Below, in pieces: positions 27,420 through 60,800 of a stretch of 64,000 nucleotides of DNA. The notes below the pieces were generated by a model. The model saw only the letters and a program-made list of their open reading frames with translations. It did no database searches and was not told the DNA's origin. Position 1 is the first letter of the stretch; every line of letters begins with the position of its first letter. The translations under genes and the position numbers were made by a program. This stretch comes from Owenia fusiformis (Eukaryota; Annelida; Polychaeta; Sabellida; Oweniidae), in NCBI GenBank assembly GCA_903813345.2, contig CAIIXF020000006.1:6002989-6066988 (forward strand), read 5' to 3'.

Positions 27420-27719
27420 AATTTTAAAAACACATATGTTAGTTCAACTAGATAAGGATTTTAAGTAAAATAAAAAAAAAAAAAAAGAAAAAAAAAAAGA
27501 GACTTCTACAAACCATCAGTGTAAAACTTACAAGTGATAGCACAGTGTGGAAAACAAGCACCAGAGACTAAACAAAGGTGGCATCAAAGCACCTATTACA
27601 GATGGACATAAACAAACAAACCCTTGGCAAATCCTGGCTACGGGCCTGATATAATATATGATAATGCCGTATTTAGAATAGATAAATAGTTCAGATAGTG
27701 TAATGGGAATTGCCTTAAT

Positions 27720-30700: not shown

Positions 30701-33700
30701 AGCATAGCTTTGCCACCCAAGAAAAATGGTGATATTAGGGTATGTGTGACGGAGTGATTTTCATGTTGTATTTTATAATTAATATCTTATACTTTTACTT
30801 TGTTTTTACTTTGTAAATTAATTAATGGAAACATGATACAAAAAGCATTTAGATAAACAACAGGTCATGTAGTACACCTGGGATATCTCTGGTCAGTTTC
30901 TCACATTAAATATGCAATCATTACAATTGTTCAGAGCATCTTCAGACTTACAAATGTTTCTTTAATTTACATTTAATTTACATTTCTATATCTTGGATTC
31001 TAATTAGGATTTGAAGCAGTCTTCCTATTGTTAAACTTTTTACATAACAGATTTGAAGTGATCATGTGATGTCTGGTTTTGAAGAATATACTATATGCCA
31101 TGTGAGATTTGGGTCACTTTCGGCCTAGACTTCAAAAAGACATAACTAGATTTAGCAGTAGATTAGAAGTGAAAACAAGTGAAATAAATAAAAGATAGAA
31201 ATTAAAACATCACACTATTGTGTACATTTAATATAAAGAAAGCCCGGTCATATTTTGGTGGAGCTGCCTGAGGTTTAACAACAATGGATTTATCAATATT
31301 GGACAAATTCCATGGAAAATCAGAAGAAAACGTTATTATTTGGTTAAACACTATTGACACATTCGCAAATTTAAAGAACTGGAACCAACAAAGAAAATGT
31401 AGTTTAATCCCACTTTTAGTCAAAGGAGAAGCAGCAAAATACTTTGAACAATTAGAGGAAAATACAAAGAACGACTGGGAGGAATTGACGGAAGCACTTA
31501 AAGAAAGGTTCCCACCCAAACAATCGGAAAGATGGGAGTTGTTGGATAAATTGGATACTCTCAAACAAAATGATATGTCTGTGGATGAATTCCACAGCAA
31601 GCTCATGTATTATACCAGCAGACTAAAAAAGGATGCTGAGGATGTTAAAGAACTCTTTGTCCAAGGATTGAATACATCTACAAAGAACTTTGTAAGGCTC
31701 AAAGAACCTGAAAATTTAGAACAAGCTGTTAAGTTCGCAAGGATTCATAGCAACATGCCCCAAGATTCAGCGCCAGAGATGTTAGCAGCCTCGATTAAAA
31801 TTCTCACGGATAAAGTCGATAAGCTATCCGTTGCTGCAGTCACAGTCGATGCCATGGGTCAACGCTATGCCAACAATAACCAGTTTCCAGTGCAACAAAG
31901 TGCCCAAAGACAGCAGAACCAGTATCAACCGCAGAATCAGTACCAACCGCAAAAGCAGTATCAACCGCAGAATCCGTTTCAACAACAGAACCAATTTCCT
32001 GGGAATCAACAGTTTACGCAACAACAGAAACGGTATCCCCAACATGACCAACAATTTATGCAGCAAAATTCATCAAGCAGAAACCAGTGTGAGAGGTGCG
32101 GTAAGTCAAACCACCTTTCATTAAATTGTTATGCTAGGTTTAAGCAGTGCTTTCAGTGTGGTCGCGGGGGGCATTATTCGTATATGTGTCGAAACGTTGC
32201 TAAATGAGGACTCGCGCCTGTTCCTCATAGGGATGGGCACCTTGAAACTAAAGTTGACAATCAAAAGTTTAAAAAAGTGAAAAGTGATAGTGGCAAGGTG
32301 GCCATCCCTGCAGTTCAATCAGTCAAGGTTAATTTGCAAAGATCAGTTTCAAACATAATTATTCATACAAACATAGTTGACAATAATATCAAAGCCTTGG
32401 TAGATACTGGTGCAGAACAATCCTGTATGAGATTAGCACTCTATGAAAAATTGAACTTGCACAAGAAATGTCCTATCAGTCCAACTAATATTGAGTTATA
32501 TGGGGCTGGGGGAGAAGCGCACAAGCTAGAAGTACTGGGTGTGGCAAATGTTCCTCTAAAATTTGAAGATATTGAATATGTTCAACCAATGCATATCCTC
32601 AAAAGTGCAAATCATGATGTAATTTTAGGTGAGGACTTTTTCTCACAAAGTAAAGCACTCATAGACTTCACACAAAAAGTTGTCATTTTACAAAAGGGAG
32701 ATCCTACTAAACATAGTACATATACTACTAATGAACCAAGACTAACAGCATGTGTAAATAATGTAGCTATTGGTAGTGAAGTACAAACATCAGGTATCAA
32801 TCTAGAGAAATGTAAATTACCAGAGGGGGAAAAGACAAAATTGATAACTTTCATTGATAAAAATAAAGATGTCTTTTCTCAAAACATGAATGAGCTAGGC
32901 TGTGCAAATAGTACATATGAGCATGTTATAAGAACAAAATCAGATAAGCCAGTCCAGCAAAGATTCTATAGGTATTCTCAAGAACAGAAAAATGAAATTG
33001 ACAAACAATGTGACCAAATGTTAGAATATGGCATAATTGAACATTCTGTGTCAGAATATGCTAGCCCTGTTGTGTTAGTGAAAAAGAAGTCAAATGAGTA
33101 CAGGTTAGCAATAGACTACAGAAGGCTCAATAAAAACACAGAAGCAATTCATTACCCTCTTCCACAATTAAATGACATTATAGATTGCATAGCGCATTCA
33201 AAAGCAACAATATTTTCAGTTTTGGACATGCATAGTGGGTTTTGGCAATTACCTCTTAGTGAAACCTCAAAGCATAAAACAGCATTTGTAACCCACAAGG
33301 GCAAATTTCAGTTCAACAGAATGCCTTTTGGCCTCAAAAATGCACCAATGTCATTTCAGAGGGTCATGAATGATGTTTTGAAAGGTCTTACATGGGACTT
33401 TGTGTTGGTTTACTGTGATGACATAATTGTTTTCAGTAAAGACATGAAAGAGCATTTAAACCATTTAGATCAGGTATTCACAAGACTTAGAAAAGCAAAT
33501 TTGAAGCTTAAACCCTCAAAATGTAAACTAGCACTGGAAAAGGTTGTTTATTTGGGTTTTGTCTTCACCAAAGAAGGTATAACAGTAGACAATGAAAAGA
33601 TCAAGGCAATTCTATCATACCCACAACCTACAAATGTCACAGAGGTAAGGGCATATTTGGGACTTTGTAACTTTTACCGCAGATTTGTTAAGGGTTTTAG

Positions 33701-36700
33701 TAACATAGTAGCCCCACTAAACAATCTTATGCGAAAAAATGTCGAGTTTGTTTGGGATGAACAATGTGAAAATGCATTTCAAGAATCAAAAATTATGTTG
33801 ACTACAGAACCAGTGTTAGTATATCCTGACTTACAAAAGCCGTTCATTATATCATGTGACGCTTCAGGTACAGCTATTGGTTACATATTAGGTCAAATAG
33901 ACGAACAAGGGAGAGAGAGAGCAGTTAGCTATGGAGGTAGGTCACTCTCAACAGGAGAGAGAAAGTGGTCCATTACTGAGAGAGAATGCCTTGCTTTAAT
34001 TGAAGCAATCAATGAATACCACATATACATAGCAAATACACATTTTATAGTTTACACTGATCACATCTCATTAAAGTACCTGCAATCAATTAAAGATCAT
34101 ACAGGTAGGCTAGGTAAGTGGTCAATCAAACTTCAAGCATATGATTTCACCATTGAGTTCAGGTGTGGCAAATCAAACTCAAATGCAGATGCATTAAGCC
34201 GGAGACCATATGAAGTAAATGAATGTAAACAAATGTGTCAACAAACCACAACAATACAAACAGAGGACTCAGGTATTACACAAGACAACTGCACTGATGA
34301 ATGGGTAGCTTATAGTATTCCAAGCCCTACTACAATGCAAACAGGTAATATAGGGTCAGAAGGTCAAAATGTTAAGTGTCCAATAAGTGAATCAAAACAA
34401 CAAACAGGTATGTGTAGTGACCTAAGTGCCCTAAGTTCAATATGTGAAATTACTCAATCATCAAATGAGGTGTTTCAAAATAAACAAAGACAAGATCCCC
34501 AACTGCAAATATACATAAAGTATTTAGAGCAAGATGAGTTACCAGACAAAGAGAACTTAGCAAGAAAGGTAATACTTGAAAGTCAGGATTTTCTTATCAA
34601 AGATGGTATTCTATATCATATGTATTATCCAAGGGGAAAGGGTCATAAATCAGACAGAGTTGTAATACAATTAGCAATACCACAACAATTGAGAGAGGAT
34701 GTTCTACAGTGTTATCATGACTCCTTAATGGGAGGGCATCAAGGTCAAGATAGGACATACAACACAATCAGGTACAAATATTACTGGCCAAAAATGTATT
34801 CTGACATAGAGAAATATGTAAAATCATGTGAAATTTGTCAACAATCAAAAAGGTATCATGGCCAGAGAGCACCCTTACAACCATTACCAACAGGAAGTCT
34901 ATTCAGTCGTGTCCACATGGATATACTAGGACCTATACACAAGGTAAATGGATTTCAGTACATTCTTTTGATTGTAGACTCATTTTCGAAGTGGCCAGAA
35001 GCGGTTGCCTTGAAATCTATAGAAGCAACAGAGGTAGCCAGGGTATTGTTTACAGAATTCATATGTAGATATGGTTCCATGAAGACTTTAATTACAGATA
35101 GAGGCCAGAATTTCATGTCAAAAGTTATTCAAGAATTGTGTAGAATGTTTGGTATTGAACACAGGGCAACCTCAAGTTATCACCCTGAGACCAATTCAAG
35201 CTGCGAAAGGATGAACAGTACAATCAATCAAGCATTTAGGTGTTTTGTTGATAAACAACAATCTAATTGGCCACAACTTCTACCAGGTATTTTAGCCTCT
35301 TATAGGTTTTCACCAGCAACTGAGTCAACTGGGTATTCCCCTTACTATTTGTTGTATGGTAAGGAACCCCTTATGCCACTAGATACTATGGTACCAGTAA
35401 GTATGGGACAAAGTACAGTCACAGACAGACTACAAGATATACAGACTAACTTAGAGGTAGCAAGGGATATAGCTAAAGAGAATCAAGAAGCTGCAAAGAT
35501 AAAGACTAAAACCCAACATGATAAAAAGGCGAAACTACCACAGTTCAAGGTAGGTGATAGAGTATGGTTACATGTGCCTAAAACTCCAACAGGTCTAACA
35601 CCTAAACATTGTAGAAAATATCATGGTCCATATTACATTGTAAGGGCTAATGCTAACATGACATACAAACTAATAAGGTGTAGTGATGATCGTTTATTGA
35701 GGTCTTTGGTACATGCAAATAGATTGAAGCCTTATGTAGATCCAGAGACAAGACCAACAAATATACCAAGAGTTCAACAGGGACAGGTATTACAGGATGA
35801 CAATCATATTGATCAAGGTAGTAGTAGTATTAGTGATAGTAGTAGTGAAAGTGATCAGCAGCCACCTCAGGTACAAGAAGTTGAGCGACTCTTGGCATGT
35901 GGTAAACACAATGGAAAAAAGTGTTATAAGGTGAAGTGGCGTAATGAGAAAAAGAGTACATGGGAGTATGAAGAAAATATTCCAAGAAATTTAATAAGGG
36001 AATACCATATCACCAAAACAAACACTGGTAAAGTAAGAAAAAGGAAAACTAGATAAGAAAGCAAATCGATACATCATGCATGCATTTAAGTCCCATATTA
36101 GTTAGTTGTTTGAGTAAGTACATGTAGGCATTATATGATGTATGATATGGTATTGTAAAGAAACTATAGCAGTTTATTGTTTGATATATTCTATGGTACA
36201 AGTATACAGCACAGGTGAGGTATAAGAGATGATGCTATTAAATTAAGGTAAGGGTATCAGGTGTAAATGTAAAGATAAAAGAGTATTAAGTGAGAAATAA
36301 TAAAGTAAATGCAATGTAATAAAGCAAGTGAAATGATAATAAAGCAAGTGAAAAATAAAGAGAATATCTGGTTCCAATCAAGAGGATTAAAACACAGGTC
36401 TATTTAATGTACAAGTAGATCTGCGGATCCCAGGAAGATCAAACCTTAAAGAAAAGGTTAACCTAGGACAGCGTGCGACCTAGTCTGAGTTATTTAATGG
36501 CTAAAACCCCACATTACAAATGCAGTAATAAGACGTTGTTATCTGTGTATGTAATTGTGTAGCCAGTGTCTTAACGTCTAATTAAAGGGGCAGGTAGTGG
36601 CTCACGAATGCGGCAACCCCACCTTGCTGTCATTTATACAGTAAGGTAAGTCCAAGTTCTGACATAAGCACGTAGTACATATAGTGTGTAGAAGTGTTAG

Positions 36701-39700
36701 TTAGAATAATATATGTAGTTCAAGTGAAAGTAAAACAAATGTAGTCCAAGTGAAAGTGAAAGAAATGTAGTTCAAGTGAAATCCTAATGAAAAAGGATAA
36801 GACAGTGAGCCAAAATAAAAGTGTCAATATTGCATGGCCAACCCTGCTAATATTTTTAAATGTCTTAACCTGTAAACTAATAAAGTGTTAGGATTATTTA
36901 CTAATATTTAGTTTAGTGCCTTCTGGTAAATATAGTTACTGGGTGCAAACTACTTCCTGGGAGCTAGACACTAATTGGGACCAGTTAATTTGAGAATGAC
37001 AACTTATAATAATCTTAATTGTTCAAAATATATAATTAATTAATCCTAAATTAAATATCTATGTACAACTTAAATTGAATTCATGGACTGCTACAGTCAG
37101 TTTACATTGTTTAAGAAGTTCAATTGCAAGGGATTATTTGCCTTACTTCTCTTATACTTCATCAATGTGAGTTTCTCATTATTATTTAAATGTGCCAGAC
37201 AAAGGTCATATACCAAAGCATTATGGTAGAGATAAAGTTTGCACAAACAATTATGATGTGCATCATTAACAGTGTTTATAAACAAAACTTAGTAGAAAGG
37301 TAGGATTTAGTGCAAGTTACTTTTAACTAGATATGGTTATAATAGGCCATAAAAGATTTTTTTTCTCCTGTACATATGATTGTAATTTTTAACTCAAGAA
37401 AATACAGGATTGGATTGTGCCAAGTTGATACGTTTTTACTGGCAACAGAATCATACGCGTAAAATTCTGTGCTGGTGCATAATGAGTGATCAATTACCTT
37501 TGTTGGTTGTTAATTGCAGTTTGGGTATTTTCAAAAAGAAATTGTCCTGTTTATAATTGTTTTATTGAGTTTAATAATTATTATGGTAGTTTATGATGAT
37601 TTTAGTTAGATAAACAGTATGTAAATTGTAAAGTAGAGTATACAAATAGGTGTTTAAAAAAAAACAACAAAAATATATATATGCGACCACTCTGAACACT
37701 AAATTGCTTAAAATAAGAATTGCTAGCAGACAATTTGAAAGTTGGTAGACTTATGGCCTCAAAAATTTATGGAGGAGTTATTAATCTTCTAATATGATGA
37801 ATTTCTTGATTAATGAAAATGATGCTGAATTATATTAACTCTGATAGTGCAACAATTAATACTATAAACAATGTGACTTTACTTCAGGAAGGAAGGACAA
37901 TATGACACATCCTCATCTTCAGGCGCTGACATCAACATTGGACGATGACATCAACGTTGGACGTTGATATAACATTTTTACATTATTTTATACTTTGATA
38001 GAATTTAACATTACAGGTTATATATTTTTGACTTTGGACTGATTAAACGGAGTGATTTTCATTTAGAATGCGGGACGCATTCTTTGGAGGAGAAGCAAAT
38101 GTGACGGAGTGATTTTCATGTTGTATTTTATAATTAATATCTTATACTTTTACTTTGTTTTTACTTTGTAAATTAATTAATGGAAACATGATACAAAAAG
38201 CATTTAGATAAACAACAGGTCATGTAGTACACCTGGGATATCTCTGGTCAGTTTCTCACATTAAATATGCAATCATTACAATTGTTCAGAGCATCTTCAG
38301 ACTTACAAATGTTTCTTTAATTTACATTTAATTTACATTTCTATATCTTGGATTCTAATTAGGATTTGAAGCAGTCTTCCTATTGTTAAACTTTTTACAT
38401 AACAGATTTGAAGTGATCATGTGATGTCTGGTTTTGAAGAATATACTATATGCCATGTGAGATTTGGGTCACTTTCGGCCTAGACTTCAAAAAGACATAA
38501 CTAGATTTAGCAGTAGATTAGAAGTGAAAACAAGTGAAATAAATAAAAGATAGAAATTAAAACATCACACTATTGTGTACATTTAATATAAAGAAAGCCC
38601 GGTCATATATGTATAGACCCTAGACCTCTGAATAAGGCTCTGAAACGTGAACACTATCAATTACCTGTGCTTGATGATGTGTCACACAAACTCTCAAAAG
38701 GCAAAAAGAAACTTATGAGTATTTTTGACTGCAAAAATGGATTTCATCACCTAGTACTTGATGAAGACTCTAGTGAACTGACAACATTTATGACTCCTTT
38801 TGGAAGATACAAGTGGCTCAGACTTCCATTTGGTTTGAATGTTTCTAGTGAAATCTTTCAAAAAAGACTCAATATGGCACTTGAAGGCCTAGAAGGTGTT
38901 ATCTGTATAGCTGATGACATACTGATTTATGGTCAAGGTGAAACTGACGAAGATGCAAGTATTGACCATGACAAAAAACTGAAAATGTTCTTGCAAAGAT
39001 GTCGGGAACAAAACATTGTCTTGAATAAACTCAAAATGAAACTTAGACAAACTGAGGTCAAGTTTATGGGTCATCTTTTGACAGCTGATGGTTTAAAGGC
39101 GGATCCTGAAAAGATAAAGGCTGTGATTGACATGCCTAGACCAACTGATGTAACTGGAGTACAAAGAATTAATGGCTTTGTGCAATACCTGGCAAAGTTT
39201 CTCCCAGGTATATCTGATGTACTTGAACCGATCAGACAATTGACTAAGAAAGATATAAGCTGGTACTGGGGACCATCTCAAGAAACTGCTTTCACTAAAA
39301 TGAAGAAAATGGTCACAAACACTCCAATCTTACAATACTATGATCCGACAAAAGAACTGACTATACAATGTGATGCAAGTCAAACTGGACTTGGCGCATG
39401 TCCTCTGCAAAATGGACAACCAATTGCTTATGCAAGTAGAGCATTAACAGACACTGAAACTCGATATGCTCAAATAGAAAAAGAACTTCTGGCAGTATGT
39501 TGGTCTGTGGAAAAATGGCACCACATGACTTATGGACGTAAAGTAGTCGTACATACAGACCATAAACCTTTAGAAAGCATACTGAAAAAACCACTAGATC
39601 AAGCTCCTAAAAGACTTCAGCAAATGATGATGAGATTGCAAAGATATGACATTGAAGTTAAATACCAACCTGGTAAACTCATGTATTTGGCTGATACTCT

Positions 39701-42700
39701 TTCTCGAGCTTATCTCAAGTCTGACAGTTCTTCTGACAAAACTGAAAGAGTAAACATGGCATCTTACCTGCCTATTACTTCAAAAAGACTTGATGACATA
39801 AGACTGAAGACAGAAAATGACGAAACTCTCCAAGAACTAAAAAAGGTCATTCTGAATGGCTGGCCTAATGAAAAAATTCACTTACATAGTCTTGTTCATC
39901 CCTATTTCAACATGAGAGATGAGTTATCTGTTCAAGATGGTCTTATCTTTCGTGGTGAACGAGTTATCATTCCTGAAAAACTCAGACCTCTAATGAAAGA
40001 AAAAATACACTCTTCACACTTGGGAATAAATGGTTGCCAAAGACGTGCTAGAGAATGTATATACTGGCCCAGCATGCAATCTGAAATCAAGCAATTTGTC
40101 TCTGAATGCTCTATCTGTAGAGAATTTGAAACATCACAGACAAATGAAAAGCTGATGAGCCATGATATACCTGATCGACCTTGGCAAGATGTGGGCACTG
40201 ATTTGTTCGAATTTGAAAACAAAGAATATTTAGTGACAGTTGACTACTTCAGTAGCTTTTTTGAACTTGACTATATACCTGACATGAAGTCATCTACAGT
40301 GATCAGAAAGCTAAAAGCAAACTTTTCCAGACATGGCATACCTGATAAGGTAATTAGTGACAATGCAGGACAATTCATCTCAGATGAATTTAGACAATTT
40401 TCTCATGAATGGGATTTTGATCATTTTACTATTTCTCCACATAACAGTAAGGCTAATGGGAAAGTCGAATCAGCCGTGAAAATTGCTAAAAAACTGTTGA
40501 GAAAATGTAAGAAGTCAAAATCTGACATATACCTAGCTCTTCTGGACTATAGAAACACACCTACTCAGGACATGGACAGTAGCCCCTCACAAAGGCTCAT
40601 GAACAGGCGAACTAAAACGTTGTTACCTACTTCCAATAGTCTACTGATGTCAAGAGGTTTTAACAAAATTGACAGAGAAAAATTGAAAAATAAACAAGAA
40701 AGACAACAAAAATATTTCAATAGAAACACCAAAGATTTGAAGCCTCTTGAAGAAGGTCAGACAGTTAGAATGAAACCTTTCAAATTAGGTGACAAAAGTT
40801 GGAAAAAGGCAACTATTCATAGAAGATTAGATGAAAGATCTTATGAGGTTGAAACTGACAAAGGTGACTTATTGAGACGGAATAGAGTTCATCTGCGATA
40901 TTCCTCAGAGAAACCAACCCCTCCCATTTCAAATTCCAATTCATCATGCCCTGAACCAAAACCTGTCCAATTATCTCCAACTAAAATCTCTTCTCCAACT
41001 CCAATAAAATCCAAACAAGCAACACCAAAGATCTATCAAGAAAGTAATAGGGAAACGCCTAACTTTAGCAATAGCCCTACTGTGAAAACACCTGTGAAAA
41101 GCAGACCTAGTAGAGATAAAAAACCACCCAATTATTTGGCTGATTATGATACAAAGTTCTCAAAGTAATATGATACTAAAGTGATATGAACTGATTTATA
41201 TGATGACTACTGCTATGGAAAAGGACTATGAGAATAAACATTATAATCGCTTATAATCAATTGCATAGTGCATGAAATTATTATCTGAACTCTGGAAAAT
41301 AGCAACAACTTCTAAGAACATTAATTTGTGAAAATTCTTAGTTACACCCAAAATTCTTGAGTTCATACATGAAGCAGCTAAAAATTACTTTTAGAGGAAC
41401 ACTTCTTTATATTCCAATGTTAAAGCTTGAAAACAATGAAGCCATACATGTATTTGGTTTATAGCAAGATTCAAGGACATTATATATCATGTTTAATTGA
41501 CAGCTTGTTTATGCTTCCTTGCAAATGCTGATAACTGAGTTCTGGTACCAGGAATATGTCACATTAATCAACCTACTTAGATGGTGTGGTCACCAGATGT
41601 TTTAATTAACTATCCTAGTAAACCTTTAACCATGACCTTAAATAATTAATTGAAACCGAGAACTTAAATCAGGTCACCTATATTTTCTAATTAAGGGATT
41701 ATCTCAAACTTTCAGAAAAGGAAGGATGTTTCATATTGTATTGTACTTGTGATACAACCCCTCTTAAAACATATCCTATGTCACGTGATAGTATAGTTTG
41801 TTATTAGATTGTATTACATACACACCCTTCACTTGTATGCTTGTAAGCTACCAATAAACAGCTCTTATTAGAAATAGATATTACAACAACTATATGACTC
41901 GACTCTTGTTTCATATGTAGTAATATTATGTAACAATATGGTTTCATTAAGATTCGGGTTCTAACCTTTAGAAGGTAAGTCAGACTCCCAAACGTCAGCT
42001 AACTCTTATATTTAGCATGTTAGCGACGAAGTCAGGCCTTGAAAAAAGTAGTACTGTAGGATATACACCAAGGCAAATCATCCCACATGGGACACCAGTG
42101 TAACCACCCAAGGGCGCCTATGGAGAGCTGTAGTGTAACAAGCCAGATACAGACATGAAAGTCTATGTCAATAATTTGCAAAAGACTGATAAGCCCATTT
42201 TAAGCAAAGCGTATGCTCAATTTAATGCCCTGTGCATTAATCAAACCAAGGACCTTCCAGTAGAGTCTGATGCTCTTCCCATGAGCCATCAAGACTTTTA
42301 AGTCGACACAGCTGAACTATAATAGGAACTTGCTATCCAGGGCCGTTACAATCTATACAATTTCAGATTTGAAATCATTCAGAGGTGCTGAATTGGAAAA
42401 GTCTCTAATCTAATAATTACCAATTCATTTTCTTACATGTATATGTGACAATGGGTAGCCAGAATCTAACAGAACAGCACTTAATTGCATCTCATAGATT
42501 TTACATGTTATACCAGTGTTGATAGCTCAGTCGGTAGAGCATCATACTCTTAACTGGAAGGTCATGAATTGAGCACACTCCCCTTCAGGTCTGTATCTGG
42601 CTTGTTACAATATAGCTCCCCAAAGTCACTCTTGGGTTGTTACACCAGCAACATGTATATGACTCTTATTTGCAGCACAACCATTACATTGGATATACAA

Positions 42701-45700
42701 CACTGACAAACTTGATGACCTTATTAGAGATGCTGAGGAGATCGAGTTTTGGGAGCCATCTGCAAACCCTTTCTATTGTATCCCAACAGGAAGCCAGAGT
42801 TGCTATGGAGATCAGGCATTTGTAATGCTGGAATCACTGGTGGCTTGCAAAGGTATATATATTTAGTATCTTGGTTGCTTATATTAGAATCTATTCTATT
42901 CTAGATAATAATCTTTCAATTTGAATGGTTCCATAATTTTTTAACACAAGGATTTTATTGATTAGATTTAAATCAGTACTATTGATGATGAGTTCTAGAA
43001 TCAACTGCTATTTTAGATGTTAGATGTCTGTTAAGTCTTGGTCTTCTTTCGTTTTAAAAATACATGAACTGTAACTTTGTGGCACATGTGGTTATACAAG
43101 TATATTCAGTCATTCTGCTAAATGAAATTTAATTAATTTTGGAATAAACAGTAGAAAATTAATTTTGTGTTCGTATAAAAAAGAATTTATGATACTCAAG
43201 GGGTGTATACACTGGCAGGCGAAATGCTTGAAACGGCGGCGAAAAGGCTGATTGCTTGAATTGATTGAAATGAAAGTGAAAGTAGATTAGGCGAATTGAT
43301 TGAAATGCTTGAAACGATTGAACTGATTGAAACAATTGTTCATATATAAACTCTCAAAAGTGTTGAAACATCATTGGGGGGACCATGGTATACACCATTA
43401 TGAGATTGGCTTTATGCTTATATATTCAAAAGGGTGTATTTATGACATTAGTGGCATTGTTTATAACATTACTTTTTAACTGATTATTTACTGGATGTAT
43501 GTATGTGCATTTAGGTTATAATGAAGAAGACCTGAAGCAAAGGATGTACAAGATGTTTGGTCCAGGCTCTCAGTATGATAACCCAATAGTTGACCAGTAC
43601 ACATGGAAGGCAGGTATGCAGATTAAGTATACATACCACTACTAATATCTAGTATATTATTAAATACATTTACTGAAGGCCTACATGTATTATTAAGTGT
43701 CTTTCTGGAATTCATTTCTATTTTTCCCTCCGTTACAATTTGTCACTACATGTATATTAAATATATATACATGACTAATGGATACAGATGGATTTGATAA
43801 CTATCTTGTATGTTTAGATTTAAAGAAGGAGTACCCCTTAAAGACACCATGGAAACACTTCAGCATCAAACATTTCCTGAAATGCTACAAGGCTGGCAAT
43901 CCAAAAACAGGTGTGCAAATCAACTATAACTGAAATAAGTAAAAGTTCATTTCAGTAATTTGAATGATATTTGATTCATTGAAATACATATACAAATACA
44001 TGTATGTAGAAGATATTAAAAATGCTGGCTAGAAAAGGTTTATTTATGTAATTTACATTGTGACCTTAAAGGAATTCTAGGCGATAAAAATAACAAAATA
44101 TTGCTTCTGGGACAAGGTCAAACAACTTTTACATATTCTTTACCCTACCTATTTTGTAATTTAACAATCAACACAAGTATACATACCATATTTCAGCAGA
44201 TATCGAAAAAAATCAAAAATATATTTTTTGATCGATAAAATCATGGATTATAAAACTGTGTGTTTTCTCTGAAGTCCGTGTGGACACACACCCTAAATGC
44301 ACTTCTCTTTTGCAGGCCTGGAGACTGATGAGCAAATAGACTGTTGTGCAAAGATAGCCCCCTTAGTGGCATGGTATGCTGGGGACCAAGAAATGCTAGA
44401 AAGAGTGGAGGATTTTGTAAGGGTCACTCAGGACTCTGACCTTGATGTGGCCCTTGCTCTCGCATATGCAAGGTATATTTAAAGATTTTATCAACATTTA
44501 TTCCAATTTTTTCAGTTCAGTTCATTCCATTCATTATGTACACTTAGATTAGTAAAGTGGAACACCTGGATAAGTGGAAATCTTTTTTAAGTCCCATTAC
44601 CCATGAACTTAAAAATTAATTCTGTACTGTAAGTTGATTGCCTCTGAAGAGAAATATTATTTTGAGATATCAAAGGTGTTCCACTTTCACAGTTTCCACT
44701 GTAGGTGCACATGTATTTATGTGAAGCTGAGTTTTTGGTACAGAATTTCCACTCCTTTTAATTTAAAGGTAATGCAGTAAAACCTGTTTAGAGCTGCACA
44801 TCGCTCTAGAACACAATCTTGGGTTGTTCAAGGGCCAACTGTAAGATTTTTAGTTTTAATGAAAGTATATACAATGGTGAACAAATGGGGCAAATCTTGT
44901 TTACAAATACTCACGATAAATGTGTCATTATGAAGATTGCTCTTTGAATTGCTTTGATTGTCGCAGACAATATTATTTTTGGAAAGTTTCTAAATGTGAC
45001 ATCACTACAGAATTAGAACGTTCAATATTAGTAGCATAAATTATCCTCTTAGTTTCATAGGTTGATGTTGGTCTTGTGGTAGAATGCTCGCCGTGGGCAC
45101 CCGGGAATTTATTTATGTTTTTTAACTTAATGATTGTGCTTTGATATTACGCAGAAAAACAGTTTTTAATCATGTCAAACACTATACTTAGCTTTAGTAA
45201 TCTTGTTGACTGTATGGAAATATGAAAATAATGTATGTCGAAATATTGCTTTTTAGAGTGATGTGCGGGTGTAAGTGGAACACCGTCGGAACCTCTACAA
45301 AGTGTTTTACTTGGGAGGTGTTCCACTTATAAAGGTTCACTTAACATTAAGTTAGTTGGCTGGTACTCTGAAAAATGTTACACCAACAGAAGTGTTCCAC
45401 TTGTAGAGGTGTTCCAATTTACAGGTTTCACTGACAGTACAAGTAACATAATTTTTTGCAGGATACTGGAGAAGTACATTCTCGATGGTCCAGTTGATGA
45501 TGTCATAGAGCATGTCATCAGAGAGCTGAACAATCCAAAGCGTAACTACCCACAAGATTTAGACAAGGGGGTGGTAAATTTCTTGCGCCAAGTTCTCAAT
45601 GTTAAAGACAGAGACCATTTGGAAGTGGCAAGGAAGGAATTTAGAAATGACTGAGGTTAGTTTTGATTTTAAACCTTTGATTTTGTATAAAATATGGCAT

Positions 45701-46413
45701 ACATTAGACAATGCTGATGTAAAACATTTTAAAACCCCTCTTTTATTTTCTTGTTTAAAGTAGATGGTTAAAGGATGTTTTAGTTACTTAGTAACAATCT
45801 TCAAATAAATACGAGGGGTATCATTAATTATTGAGAAAAGTACCATAACTTTTTAAGATTTGCTTTAATTGCATTGATATTTTTACCAAATAAAATCTAT
45901 GCTCGTATATCAATATCTTTATTAATCTTATTACTTGACTACTGGATCTGTGTTCTAGTGTTGCCGGGGAGTTTTCAGTCAGCACTACATGGTGTCATCA
46001 CAAGCCAGGATTTGATTGGTGGTGTGAGGCAGACCATACGGGTGGGTGGCTGTAACTCTTCCCGGAGCTCTATCATAGGTGCATGTATGGGGGCCAAGGT
46101 ATGTAGCTATTAGTTGTCACAAAATTGAAAAAATCCCCAGTAATAGGAAATTGAGCTTTATAATGTCTCTTTAGTTGAGTATAGAAAATAAACTCATGTA
46201 TCTCATATTTAAATTGATTTAGGATACATTACATCTGGAAATATTTAAATTTAAATTATCTCTTGAGTTGATTGAGATCAGGAAATAAACTTATTATTAT
46301 TAACAAAATATTTTTCTATTATATTCCAGTTTGGGATGGAGGCTATTCCAGAAACTTGGAAGAAGAGAACATTGAGACTTCAACAATTAGAGAATTTAAC
46401 ACAAGAAATGTAG
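27720..46413 (+). CDS. SELENOJ: Selenoprotein J / J1-crystallin type ADP-ribosylglycohydrolase homologue with in-frame UGA
   Basis: Exons: 27720-27783, 42676-42852, 43515-43613, 43818-43910, 44316-44472, 45462-45655, 45959-46098, 46330-46413. Phases agree, total 1,008 nt, 335 residues including one encoded by TGA at 45652-45654 (residue 261). The N-terminus GCILGSAVADAAG leads into QPLHWIY, the usual start of this family, and the C-terminus has GGCNSSRSSIIGACMGAKFG. In true ADP-ribosylhydrolases this last region carries metal-binding aspartates (GGDTD); here they are replaced, as I recall for crystallin-like members, so hydrolase activity is doubtful. The TGA is followed, after splicing, by VLPGSFQSALH; related proteins have Cys-x-x-Pro-Gly-[AS]-Phe here, so TGA most likely encodes selenocysteine. 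A normal stop (TAG) lies in exon 8. Intron 1 is 14.9 kb and full of transposons. If TGA were a real stop, the protein would lose its last 75 residues. Confidence 0.92.
28900..29108 (+). repeat. 5' LTR of element A
   Basis: A 209-bp LTR starting TGTTTC and ending GTAACA, with CAATAAA near its 3' part. It is followed by TGGCGGCAGCGGAGC, the likely primer-binding site region; I did not assign the tRNA. Confidence 0.93.
29228..30744 (+). pseudogene. Element A gag-pol, first part (interrupted)
   Basis: The first true ATG is at 29228. Gag-like capsid comes first, then zinc-finger motifs around residues 225-265 (CRYC..H..C and CNNCKEKNHFAAKC), then an aspartic protease (VDTGATPN, about residue 325), then the start of the reverse transcriptase up to a KNGDIRV motif. 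The natural frame is cut by element B at 30744; the few residues after that point are LTR sequence. The rest of the polyprotein lies at 38612-41168. Gag and pol appear to be in one frame. Confidence 0.9.
30745..31252 (+). repeat. 5' LTR of element B
   Basis: A 508-bp direct repeat beginning TGTGACGGAGTG and ending GGTCATA. It is followed by TTTTGGTGGAGCTGCC, the probable primer-binding region (tRNA not assigned). Confidence 0.93.
31284..32207 (+). CDS. Element B Gag
   Basis: A 307-residue capsid protein starting at the first ATG after the LTR. The N-terminal two thirds resemble the retrotransposon gag capsid (KGEAAKYFEQL region). A Gln/Tyr/Pro-rich spacer follows (about 205-265). Two adjacent zinc knuckles end the protein: CERCGKSNHLSLNC and CFQCGRGGHYSYMC. 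It ends with TGA, after which the same frame stays open into pol. Confidence 0.92.
   Translation: MDLSILDKFHGKSEENVIIWLNTIDTFANLKNWNQQRKCSLIPLLVKGEAAKYFEQLEENTKNDWEELTEALKERFPPKQSERWELLDKLDTLKQNDMSVDEFHSKLMYYTSRLKKDAEDVKELFVQGLNTSTKNFVRLKEPENLEQAVKFARIHSNMPQDSAPEMLAASIKILTDKVDKLSVAAVTVDAMGQRYANNNQFPVQQSAQRQQNQYQPQNQYQPQKQYQPQNPFQQQNQFPGNQQFTQQQKRYPQHDQQFMQQNSSSRNQCERCGKSNHLSLNCYARFKQCFQCGRGGHYSYMCRNVAK
32208..36056 (+). CDS. Element B Pol (protease, RT, RNase H, integrase, chromodomain)
   Basis: The frame is continuous with gag except for the single TGA at 32205-32207. There is no ATG upstream of the protease, so synthesis as a Gag-Pol readthrough product is likely. In order: protease with VDTGAEQS; reverse transcriptase with YCDD near 33411; RNase H (SCDASGTAIG); integrase with an H-H-C-C finger (CEICQQSK) and a D,D,E core (HMDILG, TDRGQNF, a Glu in SSCERMN); and a C-terminal chromodomain (VERLLACGKHNGKKCY, then VKWRN, then WEYEENI). 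About 1,282 codons without internal stops. Confidence 0.93.
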   Translation, partial: GLAPVPHRDGHLETKVDNQKFKKVKSDSGKVAIPAVQSVKVNLQRSVSNIIIHTNIVDNNIKALVDTGAEQSCMRLALYEKLNLHKKCPISPTNIELYGAGGEAHKLEVLGVANVPLKFEDIEYVQPMHILKSANHDVILGEDFFSQSKALIDFTQKVVILQKGDPTKHSTYTTNEPRLTACVNNVAIGSEVQTSGINLEKCKLPEGEKTKLITFIDKNKDVFSQNMNELGCANSTYEHVIRTKSDKPVQQRFYRYSQEQKNEIDKQCDQMLEYGIIEHSVSEYASPVVLVKKKSNEYRLAIDYRRLNKNTEAIHYPLPQLNDIIDCIAHSKATIFSVLDMHSGFWQLPLSETSKHKTAFVTHKGKFQFNRMPFGLKNAPMSFQRVMNDVLKGLTWDFVLVYCDDIIVFSKDMKEHLNHLDQVFTRLRKANLKLKPSKCKLALEKVVYLGFVFTKEGITVDNEKIKAILSYPQPTNVTEVRAYLGLCNFYRRFVKGFSNIVAPLNNLMRKNVEFVWDEQCENAFQESKIMLTTEPVLVYPDLQKPFIISCDASGTAIGYILGQIDEQGRERAVSYGGRSLSTGERKWSITERECLALIEAINEYHIYIANTHFIVYTDHISLKYLQSIKDHTGRLGKWSIKLQAYDFTIEFRCGKSNSNADALSRRPYEVNECKQMCQQTTTIQTEDSGITQDNCTDEWVAYSIPSPTTMQTGNIGSEGQNVKCPISESKQQTGMCSDLSALSSICEITQSSNEVFQNKQRQDPQLQIYIKYLEQDELPDKENLARKVILESQDFLIKDGILYHMYYPRGKGHKSDRVVIQLAIPQQLREDVLQCYHDSLMGGHQGQDRTYNTIRYKYYWPKMYSDIEKYVKSCEICQQSKRYHGQRAPLQPLPTGSLFSRVHMDILGPIHKVNGFQYILLIVDSFSKWPEAVALKSIEATEVARVLFTEFICRYGSMKTLITDRGQNFMSKVIQELCRMFGIEHRATSSYHPETNSSCERMNSTINQAFRCFVDKQQSNWPQLLPGILASYRFSPATESTGYSPYYLLYGKEPLMPLDTMVPVSMGQSTVTDRLQDIQTNLEVARDIAKENQEAAKIKTKTQHDKKAKLPQFKVGDRVWLHVPKTPTGLTPKHCRKYHGPYYIVRANANMTYKLIRCSDDRLLRSLVHANRLKPYVDPETRPTNIPRVQQGQVLQDDNHIDQGSSSISDSSSESDQQPPQVQEVERLLACGKHNGKKCYKVKWRNEKKSTWEYEENIPRNLIREYHITKTNTGKVRKRKTR
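36057..38099 (+). other. Untranslated 3' region of element B
   Basis: About 2 kb, AT-rich, no open frame of note and no recognisable envelope gene. Its last bases repeat CGGAGTGATTTTCAT, which also occurs at the start of the LTR. Confidence 0.7.
38100..38607 (+). repeat. 3' LTR of element B
   Basis: Same length (508 bp) and, by eye, the same sequence as the copy at 30745-31252. Confidence 0.93.
38612..41168 (+). pseudogene. Element A pol, second part (RT, RNase H, integrase)
   Basis: Continuation of the frame that was cut at 30744; it is open to the stop at 41168 without frameshift. It shows RT motifs (LRLPFGLNVSSEIFQ; an ADD box in CIADDILIYG), RNase H (QCDASQTGLG), an integrase H-H-C-C finger (CSICREFE) and the D,D,E core (GTDLF, SDNAGQF, a Glu in GKVESAVK). 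It cannot be expressed as one protein in its present state because element B lies between the two parts. Confidence 0.9.
41727..41935 (+). repeat. 3' LTR of element A
   Basis: A 209-bp direct copy of 28900-29108, followed directly by the ATATG duplication and the right arm of the surrounding TIR element. Confidence 0.93.
42100..42300 (-). mobile_element. tRNA-derived SINE, copy 2 (inverted)
   Basis: Read on the minus strand it has GATGGCTCATGGGAAGAGCATC, GGAAGGTCC and the body motif ATCTGGCTTGTTACA. It lies head-to-head with copy 3, which is less than 250 bp away. Confidence 0.7.
42525..42645 (+). mobile_element. tRNA-derived SINE, copy 3, just upstream of SelJ-like exon 2
   Basis: GATAGCTCAGTCGGTAGAGC is a clean A-box-type tRNA head; the body has ATCTGGCTTGTTACA and ends near GGGTTGTTACACC. 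It ends about 30 bp before the 3' splice site of exon 2 and so lies near the branch-point region. Confidence 0.75.
45652..45654 (+). other. Probable selenocysteine codon (TGA)
   Basis: TGA is the last complete codon of exon 6; the exon ends one base later at a GTTAG donor. The neighbouring donor, acceptor and phase leave no way to splice around it. The next exon is open and family-like, so a stop here would remove a conserved segment. Confidence 0.85.
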
Positions 46414-46458
46414 ATGCAATAGTGAATTAACTGACAATCAGCAATAGAAAAATACACA

Positions 46459-46515
46459 GCATAGAATATGAGCCTGCTCTAAAGGGGGAAACCAGGGTGA
46501 AAAAATATACAATGC
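46459..46515 (+). promoter_or_regulatory. Weak SECIS-like hairpin candidate in the SelJ-like 3' UTR
   Basis: An ATGA (46468-46471), an AAA (46481-46483) and a TGA (46498-46500) occur in the right order. Outer arms GCATAG.AT and AT.C.ATGC (46459-46468 and 46505-46515) can pair. The distance between quartet and loop and the inner helix are shorter than in usual SECIS elements, so this is only a candidate. An AATAAA follows at about 46769. Confidence 0.25.
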
Positions 46516-46809
46516 CATTACAGCTGAAACTTTTAGTGAACTTAAAAAAAGCACACAATTACCATGTGTTTTAGTCAAGTAATGAAAGCAACATAGTTAA
46601 CACATATATTCATATTATGTTTTATTCTTATTATTGCAAAGCAAATGTAAAGTTAAATTGGTGAATTGTATGATGAAAGTTGATTTAAAGTTTCAAATAT
46701 TAAAAAAAATTATCCTTGCAGGTATTAACATCATTTGTGTATAGATCATTGATCAGAGGCAAATGCTCAATAAAAACAAAAAAAACAGGGTAAAGCCAAA
46801 CTTCACTTA

Positions 46810-46990
46810 CTTGGCTTATTTTGCCCATATACTAAAACTTGGCTAATTTTGCCCACATACTAAAACTTGGCTAATTTTGCCAATATACTAAAACTTGGCT
46901 AATTTTGCCCATATACTAAAACTTAGCTTATTTTGCCCATATACTAAAATGTGGCTTATTTTGCCGATATAATCGAACTATTTTGCTTAT
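46810..46990. repeat. 28-bp tandem repeat, about six copies
   Basis: The unit TTGGCTAATTTTGCCCATAT followed by ACTAAAAC is repeated about six times, the last copies diverged. It lies just past the probable poly(A) signal of the SelJ-like gene. Confidence 0.9.
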
Positions 46991-48855
46991 ACACTCAAAC
47001 TATATTAGTTCTGGTATACTAAAACTTTGTATTGAAAAGTTATCCAAGAAATATTGTGCATATCCTACTATATGGTGAAATGGAATATAAGAAATGATGT
47101 TTTGCATTTTATGAAGGCTTTATTTTAAACATGTAAATGTAAGTAACAGCTGGATGGTTTTATGTTGGGAACTTATTTCTTGTATTCTACTCATATATTT
47201 TAGGGTCAACTTCATTTCAGTTGAGTAGTATCTTATGTCTTTACTCAGTTGAAACAAACATGCATGTTAGCTTAGAATTCCTTGAAAAGTTTTATCAGTA
47301 TATTGTTTGTATTTGATCCCAGTGTCTTATTTTTTACATTTATTTATACTTTGTCAGTAAAATACTTTAATGATTTATGAAATTTACTTTTACTTGATGA
47401 ATGTACTTTAAGAGATAGAAAATGGTAAACTGAGTACATTATATGTATTGAATGCCAGTATCATGTTTTAAAGATATATTTATACTATGTGTGCATGTCT
47501 TGGATAGTTCTATAGATTTATGAATTTTATTTTTACATGATAAAAGTACTGCTGGTCGCTCCACAAACTGAGGAGATACGTGGAAAGAGAAAATAATGAG
47601 ATATATTCAAATCATTTATATACATGTTGTCAGGGTAAATGAAATTCATCTTTGTGATAAACTTTTGTTGATAAAATACTATGCATTCCTAATTTCCTTT
47701 GTTCAAGGAATTTCACACGAGAATCAGAGAAATTAGATTTAGGAGTGTTGTAGCAAAACCTATAATACAAGCAGTTAAATAAGTGTATGTATACAATGAT
47801 TTATAAAAATCAAAATTCAGTGATTAATATACCAAATATATTCCTTGCATAGTTATTATAGTTGTTTTTCTTGATTTAATATAGTACATGTATATGAGAA
47901 ATGAACCTGCTCCCGATGTAAAAATAGCAAATGGTGCAAACTACTTGACAGTGCTTTGACGCAAATGTTATCGATCATTTTTTTTTGATAAACACCATCT
48001 GTGTTCAAAGACCATATTAAATCTGAATAAGTGTTATGAGTCAAAATTGAATGATGACGACATGCCAGGCCCAAAAAAAGATTTAACAAATTTATAATGT
48101 TATATCAATCGATCAAATAGATTGTAGTTTCTGGACCTGTGTAGTTCTTTTTACTCACCCTCCGTGCTAAAAATTAAGCTACAGGTTCCTCTCAAAAGTT
48201 TGGGTCTGTTCTCAAGTTCACATCAAAAGTAATTTAAAGTAACAATTTTTGGTCCTTTCCCTTTTGCATATGTGCATACATTTTCAACAGTGGGGTATCA
48301 TCATTCACTGTCATAGTGTCGGACAGTGTCGGTACTGGGAAATCTCTTGGATTTCAGTGGGTCCAATGGTATTAAAATACACAAAATTATTGATCTTTTG
48401 TTTATATATTTTATATATTAAGCTACATGTAGATATATGTACACTATACATGGTTGAAAAATGAACTGTACAATGAAATATACAATTTCCATTGGGAAAA
48501 TAATAATACTGTTACTACATAATTTTGCTAAAATTCTGTCAAACCTCAAAATTTAAATAATAAAGTTGGTTACTACAAAATAATTACATGGTTTCTATGA
48601 TTGATTAAATATCACCAGATTTAATCCAAACGTTACATTACATTTTGTGCATTTATGTAATGGTATAAACAGTTATTTTCTTGCTTTGATAATATTAAAT
48701 AGAATCAAGTTCAGTATCTGTAGTTTGAATATATTGGTAAATTAACAGCTTGTTGAATCTCCCTTGCATCACAATCTCGTACTCATTAATCATTACACAA
48801 CAGCTTGTACAGCAGAATTGATCAACGAGAATGAATGTGTATTGTTCAGTTAAAT

Positions 48856-51800
48856 TCATGGTTGCTCTGAAGGTGCATTTTTGTAGACAGCATGATATGC
48901 ATTGCGTAGAAGTGCGTATGGGAAGCATGATTCCAATAAGTCCATAGTTAAAAATGGTGATTCTTGAACAATCTGCAAAAAAGTATTTCCATTTGAAAAT
49001 TACACATACTTGTAACCATCTTCTAAACATATTTTAGAAATTCAAATGTTAATGTTAACTTAAAACTAACTCTTAATTGCTATAATTTTTTCTCACACAG
49101 TATTAAATATCAGATTTGGAATGTGAAAAAATATATCAGCATCTGGTCATCATACTTGAATATTTCCAAAACAACTTACCAGATCTAAGAGTAAATAGAT
49201 GGAGTCTCTGTTCTTCAGAACCTGAACCTCTTTTTCATTGTTCTCCTGGCCGAGACGTAATAAACTTTGTGAAGTCAGCTAGAAATAATCGGATCAGAAA
49301 TTAAAAAGGATTGATAATTGCAACCAATTGTATTGATAGACAGCTTCTTCACAGGCTCGAGGTAAAGGAAGCATGGCTGACCACACTGACTCTAAAATTG
49401 GCTCAGCCTCATTAAAATGTCTTTTTTCTATGGAACTTATGAATTTTCAATAGATTCAGGTTTCCTTCTTGTTTGTGAATACAAATTTACCCATCTCCCT
49501 AATAAAATTATTTCTTGAAAGAATGACATATTGGAACTTGACAACCGGGTCCTAATAATACACCACAATGGAATGTTTAACTTTTTAATCATATTAATAC
49601 ATAATCCATGCATGAAACTATTGAATGTACTTACAGCTAAGAACTCCTTTAGTCTTTCTTCTATATCCCCAGGGGCATATATTGTAAATAGAGCACCTGC
49701 TAGACTGTTGATTGCTTTGGCTAGACAGTGGATATTGTTCATGTGACCTACAAAAATATGTGATTTTCAAATAGAGTTCCATTCTTTTATCACCAAACTT
49801 CCAAATCTGATTAAATAGCATTCATTATAATATAGAAAAGAGTACAAGATTTAAATTTTTAAGGTGCAATAAAAACCACTTTTGCCATATCACTATTATA
49901 TGATATTCAAAAAATAAGGTTGAGAGTGATACAATCCCAGCAAGACAATAAAATAATTTCCATAAGTTAACTCTAGCTTCCACACTGAGAAACAATTCAT
50001 GCAAGACAAGTCTCTCGAATGAAACCCATCATTTATATTGTTCCTTTTATTTTACTTAAAACTACCTGTAACACCTACAGGTGATTGATTGCAAATATTT
50101 GTAGGAAATTACTCAATGGAAAAAAGCTAAAGTCAAATAAAACACACAGATGAAACAATAAGTATACACTAAATAGTTACTAATGCTGATCATTAAAAAT
50201 TAATTTTTTTAATATAGGTGAATACCTAATCTTTTAATAGACAAAGACATACCTTCAAATGATGCTCTATATATTGCTAGATCATTCCTTGCCAGCTTCT
50301 GCATTGACACTGCTATGAACACCATCAATAGGCAGGCTGTGTTGTACTCATTTTCTCCAGTTTCTGGCAATGAACAACAACAAGGTATTAACATGTCAAA
50401 TGTCACCACGTGATCAATACCGCAAATGGTTACAAAAGCGTAACAATTTGTAACAGACACTGAATGTCATTTTCTGAAACTGAATGCAACTCACAAGAAC
50501 AGTGTCTTAAAGTAATAAGTCAATAAATAAGTAAGTCACCAGTTCTCAGTTATACTTATTCGTATATAAAACATTACAGAAATTATTAGGAATCTGGTAA
50601 TTGCGTGATATCTGAAGGATGAGTTTAACATACCAGATTTCTGTGCACGTATTGCTCCACATAATGCAGGGTCCACACTACATGATAGTCCAGCTGCTGA
50701 CGCCATCTCAGTGACAATCTTCAACAACAATGCTCAGATGTTAGATTTAAGGATCACCCTTTCTTTTATACACAAGGACTACAGCTAAGGATCTGATTGT
50801 GGCCAGTCAAAAGATTATTACAGACTTAAGTTGCAACTATACGTTGTTTTCCTATAACTGACGATGCCCAAAGGTAGGGGCCTTAGCCCAAGCCCTGTAT
50901 ACCATATATAAATGTAATGTCACACGACAGCTATTACTCAATATGAGGTATTCAATGGTTTTTAGAAAATGCAACATTGTTTGGTTAATCCATACCCTGT
51001 AATATTCCACGACCCTTGTTTTGCTAGCTAGTTGAATGCACTTTTTGAGGCTACATTCAACCAAGATCAAAGGTATGAGCTAAATATATTAAGTTATTAA
51101 ACATTCAGAAAATCCACTTGATACATGCAATATGATAAACAAGACCAAACATCAGTTCTACAGAATACATGTACTGTAAAAATATAAATGTCCAAGATTT
51201 TGTAAGAATCAGGGCCCCATCTTAGGTTAGCTGTATTCATTGGTCATGGTAGAAATCACCCGCTGTTCTCTTAACATAATGCAGATAAATGGAGAGATGT
51301 GTGACATGTGTAATAATATCACTCATTAGCTATGCATTGCACTTTATAATATTGCAATTCAATGTTAATTTAATGGTAAATCAAAAATGAGTGTAATATT
51401 GAACATCATTTATTCATATTCTGCAATGTTACTTTGCTGTAAATGATGAATTGAGTACAGAATTCATACTAGATATACACATGACACAAATTATAATATA
51501 CTGTATCAAAAAGCTATAATATATGGCATTGTAAACTAAATAAAACATATTTTCAGAAACATTTATAATGACTTTCAAACCAGTTATACAAATAAAAAAC
51601 AATATAGCCCCAGAAGGGTGATTTAAAAATACATGTGACAAATGACTGTTGAGTTTTATTGACTACAACATAGCTAAAAGGCTGCTGTTATCCACAAGGC
51701 AAAGCTATAATCATATAAAATGGAGTTACGTTAATTAACGGGTAACTGTCAATATAAGGTTAGAAGCTGGTAACAAGGAGAAGGTTGATTTAAAGCAAGC

Positions 51801-57800: not shown

Positions 57801-60800
57801 AGTAAGCATTACAATATTGAACATACAGAATGTCACCACCTGTCATTTGTTACACTTGTTACAGATGCCGAACACCAACCACTTACTGCCATCACAAAAA
57901 AAGTTTGAGAATATAACAATATGTCAACACTGGTGGTGACATAAATGTACAGCGTTTGATGATTCTGTCTAGTGATCTTTGTTTCAACCTCGTAAGAAGA
58001 TACATGTTGAGCCAATGGAGGATGAAACAATAACACATAAAGCTAGACTACAACACCAGAATATACAATGAACACTGAACATATAAAGTAATATGGAATC
58101 TAGTTTACATAAACAACAATTACAAACAACATCTCTTTATAGCACTGCTTACTTGGGTTCAATTTTGGTTCTGAATAAAAACAAAATTAAAAGTTTAAGT
58201 TTTATATTTGTAAAAAGTGAAATTCTATGAAATGGAATAAAGGTATGAACTAAAACATAACTCAAAATCATACTGGCAATCAGAATTCCAGTTCTATAAT
58301 ATCCTTAAAAATCTGTTACTTCACTTACCGCAAATACAATAATTTCACTTACCATAAATGTATCTATAATCTCACTTACTTTGTACAAAATCTATATTTG
58401 TAATATCGTTTTTGTTAAAATAGTTCAGTTTGCAAAATTATTACATCTAAAAAGTACATTTAGCATTACTTCAAAAGTCTTGTCATATGATTCAGTTTAC
58501 TTACTTTCTAGTCTCTTATAGAGCTCTTTCATCTCTTCTGGGTTGTCAAAGTTTGTTCTTAACTGGGTCAGTGTGTCTTTGTTCTGGACTACAAGCCTCT
58601 GAAACATTGAATAATGAACAAGTAAAAGAAGTGATATGTTGATTACAAAAAGCTAAATTCTCCAAAAGGAAGACATTAACATGACAAAATGTCGCAACCT
58701 TGTAATTGCAAAATCACAGGCTGGTATCGAAATATTTGTTCGCTGTGACGGAGCATGCTATTTTTCTTAAAAACACTAAGAATACTTCACGATTTATTTT
58801 TTAACTCATATGAAAATGTCACAACCTTGCAAGTTATTGCAAAACCTTGCAAGTTATTGCAAAACCTTGCAAGTTATTGCTTTGTTACAGACCCTGAACT
58901 TGCAAAACAAAAGGAACTAAGACAAATGGAGTAAATACCAGTACCAATATAAAAAAAACAGCTCACATTTTTACCAATGAGGTATACTTGTCTGGTATTG
59001 GTCCTTACGTTTCTGAACATTATTTATTGATAATTATTTGTTATACACAAGTCAAATGATAAAAATTTGATTCTTCACAGTCACATTGAAAATGTTCACA
59101 TTCTCAATGATTCACATTCTTAACAATTAATACATATTTGAAATCAATAATGTAATGGTGATGGCTCATTCATGTGGTACTTTAATGAAGTTAAACCATT
59201 TAATAAAGCTGATGAGTTGGTATAATACACAAGCAATGAAACTTAAAACAACTTGTGTACACAGAGAGATGTCAAAAATGCTAATTACGAAGTAATACAT
59301 TAACTATGGTAATAATAATCCTTGTTGTTTGTTCTCTACTTGTTTAAACTTTCTGATATTATTAGTTACAATTTAGTTAATTTAAACATATCATCCTCAA
59401 ACAAAGGGCTAAAAACCTGTTCCTCCTATAGACACTCTACTATACCTAACACCTAGAAATGCATAAGATACTTTGTTTGTCTAATTGAATTGTTTAATAT
59501 ATTTTTGAAAGTGCCTTACTAACATCTAACTTTTAACCGATAAACCATTCATAAGGAACAGACAAATAAAAACAAATACATAATCATTACTAATAAGCCA
59601 AATGAGTTGCTCATGAACACCAAATGCAAGGTATAGTAGAGTGATAGAATGATGAGAAACAACTTCATCAGCAACTTCTAGCAATAATTTCAACTTATTC
59701 AATGCCCTTTCTAATTTAATATCTCATTTTCAAGATATCTAAGATAAATAAAGTTTCACTCAATTACAATTATCATTCAGGTATCTCATCATATGATTTG
59801 GACATGTATATATTTGAATGTATTAATATAATCAATACTTTTAAATGGGCATTAAATAATCTTAAAGTAGTTATAATGTCAACTTGTACAATAAAAGTAA
59901 TATATTTCATCATATTATTGGCAACATATGATCTTTATTACTTTGTTTACATCTAATTTCATTGATTCTAAGAAACTGAAGATTTTGAGGCTCTTTTGCA
60001 TTAATACACCCCCAATTCACACTCTAAAATCATGGTACATTAAGAGTATGGTACCATATGGTACCGTTGGAGTATAGTGCCGTACAGTGTTCACGGTACA
60101 GTGTGGTACCACTTTAATCTACAGTGCTGTATGGTACCATATTTCACAGTACCGTATGGTACCATTTTAGTCTACGGTACCATATGGTACCATATTTAAC
60201 GGTACCATACAGTACCATTTCCAAAACAGTACCACACAGTACTGTTGCAGATTGGCTGTGTATAAAAAGCAATTTTTTAAAACTTTTAGGGATGGTGCCC
60301 AATTATCAAGAGTTGTGGAAAAAGGAACTTAATTTTGTTATGGTTCAACCCCTCTACACTCATATAATGAAATTCTAAAAATATTTATCTGTCTTTCACA
60401 CAAAACACCATTCACTAACAGAATTATAATTTACCCCCTCCCCCTAAGGAAACTACCTTTATTATTCTAATAAGTTTTATCTCATAATATTGTTTCATTT
60501 TTGTTTGCTATATCATCAGAGAAGGAACACTTTAAAATTTAATTAATTTAATACTTAATACAGTGTGTGTTTTTTCGAGACAATAGGCCTAATAGACTAT
60601 AATAATAAAAGCCACAACTTGAAATGATGTCTAAGCTCAGAGACATGATTTAATGATGAATACAATATCAGTAGTAATGAAAATCCCTAACATAGCAACT
60701 TAGCAGCAGAAAACCATAAGTTTCTGACCAAGACACATCTTGAAAGAACCATGTATTCTAAAGTGCTACTAATGTTATTACTCATTGGGCTTGTCCATGT

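Follow-up and report, generated by a model that had tools for sequence, protein, structure and literature searches.

An apparent selenoprotein J-type gene with an in-frame UGA codon in the annelid Owenia fusiformis

Selenoprotein J (SelJ, SELENOJ) is a protein of ADP-ribosylglycohydrolase fold and patchy distribution, for which, to our knowledge, no biochemical function has been described. Its founding description is said to be that of Castellano in 2005, which reportedly dealt with sea urchin and with the J1-crystallins. The cubozoan J1-crystallins carry Cys in place of Sec, and the context of the Sec/Cys site in the family is presumably C-x-x-P-G-[AS]-F. SelJ has been reported as a selenoprotein among vertebrates in fish only (PMC3316567); of six invertebrates surveyed it is one in amphioxus alone, and none is listed for Lottia, Capitella, Nematostella, Trichoplax, or Amphimedon (PMC3473315). 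Other sources report SelJ in both Sec and Cys forms in algae (PMC7539508), describe the cubozoan J1-crystallins as lens proteins (PMC4989536), and name the hydrolase fold the 'ADP-ribosylation/Crystallin J1 fold', together with the bridging Asp316 of human ARH3 and the adenine-stacking Tyr212 of DraG (PMC7050489). Among the papers listed by literature searches, we recognised none on SelJ in molluscs or in any other lophotrochozoans.

Gene structure and surroundings

The window, i.e., the whole stretch of 64,000 nucleotides that was analysed, contains a gene of eight exons on the + strand (27720-46413), which join into a single frame of 335 codons ending in a TAG stop. Each of the seven introns has GT-AG borders, all splice sites are intact, and the joined frame contains no stops other than codon 261 (TGA) and codon 336 (TAG). 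The features are as follows.

27720-27783, + strand: exon 1, with the ATG at 27720 and the donor CCG/GTAATT, encoding MASVLDRKIGCILGSAVADAA
27784-42675, + strand: intron 1, 14,892 bases, containing nested LTR retrotransposons
42676-42852, + strand: exon 2
43515-43613, + strand: exon 3
43818-43910, + strand: exon 4
44316-44472, + strand: exon 5
45462-45655, + strand: exon 6, with the donor GAG/GTTAGT, ending one base past the TGA
45652-45654, + strand: in-frame TGA, codon 261, the proposed selenocysteine
45959-46098, + strand: exon 7, preceded by ...TTCTAG, with VLPGSFQSALH ... GGCNSSRSSIIGACMGAK
46330-46413, + strand: exon 8, with the TAG stop at 46411-46413

The joined translation around the TGA, which lies one base upstream of the exon 6/7 junction, runs ...RND-UGA-VLPGSFQSALHG..., and the probability that the 74 codons past the TGA are open by chance alone is about 0.0035 at the base composition of the window. 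The GC content of the exons is 0.36-0.54 versus 0.348 for the window. This join reproduces what the sequence-only reading had described, namely eight exons in one frame with a sole internal TGA and an exon 6 ending at 45655, and the open exons after the TGA carry both motifs that it had named, VLPGSFQSALH and GGCNSSR..GAKFG. The span given there, 45462-46413, holds for exons 6-8, whereas the start of the gene lies at 27720, beyond the long first intron. A tblastn search of the window for a SelJ paralogue (E up to 5) returned the gene's own eight exons, all else having an E of at least 0.65.

The gene is flanked by DROSHA and by NCKAP1, both on the - strand. Since NCKAP1 converges on the gene and ends at 48856, the gene can extend its 3' region over approximately 46414-48850. 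The DROSHA features are as follows.

5438-5677, - strand: double-stranded-RNA-binding exon of DROSHA
14672-15241, - strand: DROSHA, matching Drosha chains (best E 3.9e-46)

Elsewhere in the window, an apparent long tandem repeat array at 9410-10662 was recognised solely from repeated peptide units in the - strand translation, and a reading frame for a fibrinogen C-terminal domain (PF00147, E 5.2e-48) lies at 62496-63251, with which the frame at 60691-61251 possibly forms one gene. The intron-rich genes of the window, together with DROSHA, NCKAP1, and this fibrinogen-domain protein, point to an animal host. Upstream of exon 1, the + strand at 22520-27420 looks retroelement-like by eye, with a first frame that is zinc-finger-like and others that resemble reverse transcriptase and RNase H. 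Just upstream of exon 2, a weak tRNA-like match is found at 42516-42577 (24 bits against a cut-off of 29), which, along with a stretch near 20551 judged similar by eye, may represent a tRNA-derived short interspersed element; ARAGORN, run with the bacterial code setting, found no tRNA genes in the window.

Most of intron 1 is filled by nested LTR retrotransposons (28900-41935), the inner of which splits the pol region of the outer. The repeats of the outer element, at least 28900-29108 and 41727-41935, are identical at 209 of 209 bases, and those of the inner element, at least 30746-31253 and 38101-38608, at 508 of 508; both insertions therefore look recent. Alternatively, the TGA could be a plain nonsense change, in a gene that has recently become a pseudogene or through a mistake in sequencing or assembly, with another codon at this place in the working allele. 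The two fully matching LTR pairs, as marks of recent insertion into intron 1, would fit such a history, as would the distance of a single base between TGA and the Cys codons. Against this stand the 335 codons without any other stop, the uniformly intact splice sites, and the SECIS candidate downstream, while an intron of 14.9 kb is not in itself enough to disrupt a gene; we regard this explanation as distinctly improbable.

The fold across the TGA and splicing around it

With residue 261 entered as Cys, the Pfam family PF03747 (ADP-ribosylglycohydrolase) spans residues 10-316 of the product (E 9.1e-38). Residues 1-260 by themselves match positions 1-206 of this profile (E 6.6e-23), and the 74 residues past the TGA by themselves match positions 233-286 (E 3.5e-9). 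Because both halves match PF03747 independently, the tail frame is a coding sequence of this family. Residues 226-335 also match ARH3 chains (best E 2.7e-6, with the best stretch at residues 287-331) and, more weakly, DraG chains (E 0.0075 and 0.053), and NCBIfam gives two matches, DraG and Tri1, both far below the cut-off.

The TGA might instead be a genuine terminator, such that the main product would have 260 residues, or exons 7-8 would serve isoforms that splice the TGA out. The skipping of exon 6, which the sequence-only reading had raised as a way of avoiding the codon, was computed for all 15 contiguous skips within exons 2-8 that remove exon 6. The frame is broken by 11 of them, including the skip of exon 6 alone (stop at codon 229), but is kept to the final TAG by four, which cost 117 to 240 residues: skipping exons 5+6 leaves 218 residues, 4-6 leaves 187, 3-6 leaves 154, and 2-6 leaves 95. 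Thus, exon 6 is skippable in frame together with exon 5 but not by itself, and even this mildest of the frame-keeping skips takes its 117 residues out of the central part of the fold. Furthermore, two of the 11 GT dinucleotides in exon 6 upstream of the TGA (45487 and 45541) would keep the frame as donors; by a crude count of fit to the nine-base donor consensus they score 4 and 6, respectively, versus 7 for the donor in use, and they would delete 56 and 38 residues. A splicing detour around the TGA therefore exists on paper, at the cost of much of the domain, and ending at residue 260 would lose the last part of PF03747. We consider termination or bypass at the TGA very improbable.

A SECIS candidate and the proposed decoding

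The sequence-only reading had made its interpretation depend on a SECIS element in the 3' region. A candidate is present there, found by Rfam scan and pattern scan, and it is an addition beyond that reading. It lies beyond a tandem repeat that separates it from the stop codon.

46809-47003, + strand: tandem repeat, a 28-base unit x5.8 (91% matches), then a 22-base unit x2.1
47103-47166, + strand: SECIS candidate, matching Rfam RF00031 (SECIS_1) over the full model length

The candidate comprises AUGA at 47111, 698 bases past the stop codon, an apical UAAA, GA at 47153-47154, and GGAU on the 3' side, and its helix has 10 pairs with one bulged C and a small inner hairpin. This form can be compared with AUGA_AA, which PMC3473315 gives for nearly all SECIS elements of invertebrates outside sponges.

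The SECIS_1 match reaches 24.8 bits, below the curated cut-off of 35, with an E of 0.091 over all families in 46300-49300, where it is the best of five Rfam matches obtained with an E-value threshold. Over the whole 64 kb on both strands it has an E of 1.9, and of the 15 Rfam matches whose E does not exceed 10 it alone is a SECIS; a default Rfam scan of the window gave nothing above the curated cut-offs. The pattern scan, which called for AUGA, a helix of at least nine pairs interrupted by no more than one mismatch or bulge, AA, and GA, found two matches on the + strand of the window (47111 with 10 pairs and 2204 with nine) and none on the - strand. Among dinucleotide shuffles of 46414-48850, 51 of 1000 contained the pattern with at least nine pairs and 26 of 1000 with at least 10. 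The folding energy of the 79-base SECIS stretch is ordinary (z 0.04; 96 of 200 shuffles at least as good). An AATAAA at 46769 precedes the candidate, and an mRNA ending there would be without it; poly(A)-like hexamers past the candidate include 47356 (AGTAAA), 48016 (ATTAAA), and 48559 (AATAAA). We regard 47103-47166 as a good candidate for a SECIS element, not proof of one.

The weakness of this match is what speaks for a third explanation, in which the UGA is read through as an ordinary amino acid and the SECIS-like stem is a chance match. A SelJ-like gene would then carry its single UGA in the presumed Sec context of the family by mere coincidence. Moreover, UGA is a normal stop nearby, in NCKAP1, and the codon is followed by GUG rather than by CUA, the read-through context after a stop codon. 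Ordinary read-through is hardly credible here. The adjacent NCKAP1 ends in TGA as an ordinary stop, which also speaks against a changed genetic code.

We therefore favour a SelJ-type selenoprotein gene of 335 residues, with the UGA at codon 261 decoded as selenocysteine, at a probability of roughly 0.84. Such decoding, already proposed by the sequence-only reading, gains support from the agreement of the lone TGA, the homologous tail, the costly exon skips, and the downstream SECIS candidate. In the proposed mechanism, the 3' UTR would recruit, through its stem-loop at 47103-47166, a SECIS-binding factor, which would bring the elongation factor with Sec-tRNA to UGA 261, and translation past the UGA would then run through exons 7-8 up to the TAG. 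Under selenium shortage, translation would terminate at the UGA, which lies 141 bases ahead of the exon 7/8 junction. By the usual rule, a stop so far upstream of an exon junction makes a message a decay target, and the message should therefore be prone to nonsense-mediated decay under these conditions.

Comparison with known relatives

In alignments to ARH3 chains, the C-terminal metal-binding motif GGDTDT of active ARH/DraG hydrolases is absent, GGCNSS standing in its place; we take the second Asp of GGDTDT, aligned here to Ser295, to be Asp316 of human ARH3. This replacement makes it unlikely that the protein is a standard Mg/Mn-dependent ADP-ribose hydrolase, and a selenium-thiol or structural role seems more likely.

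Two DraG chains align with the product over stretches of equal length, 215-276 of 2woe_A with residues 260-321 and 214-272 of 3g9d_A with residues 264-322. By the end coordinates of these alignments, residue 293 falls on 248 in 2woe_A and 243 in 3g9d_A, and residue 262 on 217 in 2woe_A and, by a two-residue extrapolation, 212 in 3g9d_A. Positions 248/243 are taken to be the aspartate of GGD and 217/212 to be Tyr212 of DraG, with a numbering offset that relies on a five-residue tag presumably carried by 2woe_A. Read in this manner, Cys293 would occupy the metal-binding Asp column and Sec261 would sit beside the adenine-stacking Tyr column, which hints that selenium and thiol chemistry may have been fitted into the ligand pocket. 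That a hydrolase fold has been refitted for redox work is a speculative proposal that we consider rather doubtful; if true, Sec, with Cys293 or another thiol, could act on a bound ligand that resembles ADP-ribose or a nucleotide.

Relatives of the 335-residue product were sought in contigs, where pattern searches gave three viral and 23 genome contig stretches, none of which was confirmed by tblastn. Another 14 stretches in genome contigs and one in viral contigs fitted a degenerate DNA version of [C/U]xxPGxFQxALH in which related codons were also allowed. The best tblastn E around the motif in these 15 loci was 0.048, and they were treated as chance; the others were short motif matches or chance matches elsewhere, with three of the 15 lacking any tblastn match. 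The contig searches, at this sensitivity and for this motif form alone, turned up no SelJ in prokaryotes or viruses.

The gene is of a kind that annotation cuts short: according to PMC12822975, less than 1% of the SELENOE, SELENOL, and SELENOJ genes in Ensembl vertebrates are well annotated. A further invertebrate SelJ gene with its 3' element helps to map where Sec has been retained and where it has been lost.

Among the known systems, the PF03747 fold is common to the present protein and the ARH3/DraG ADP-ribosyl hydrolases, from which it differs at the metal site, with GGCNSS versus GGDTDT and Ser295 versus the second Asp of ARH3. The cubozoan J1-crystallins, after which the fold is named, likewise have it in common with this protein; unlike these lens proteins, the gene has no known link to the lens. 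The closest likeness is to SelJ, with which it shares a single C-terminal UGA open on both sides, a SECIS-like element downstream, and the ADP-ribosylglycohydrolase/J1-crystallin fold, a likeness of architecture and fold from which we infer membership at the residue level. SelJ is a kind already known, to which this gene seems to add a further member.
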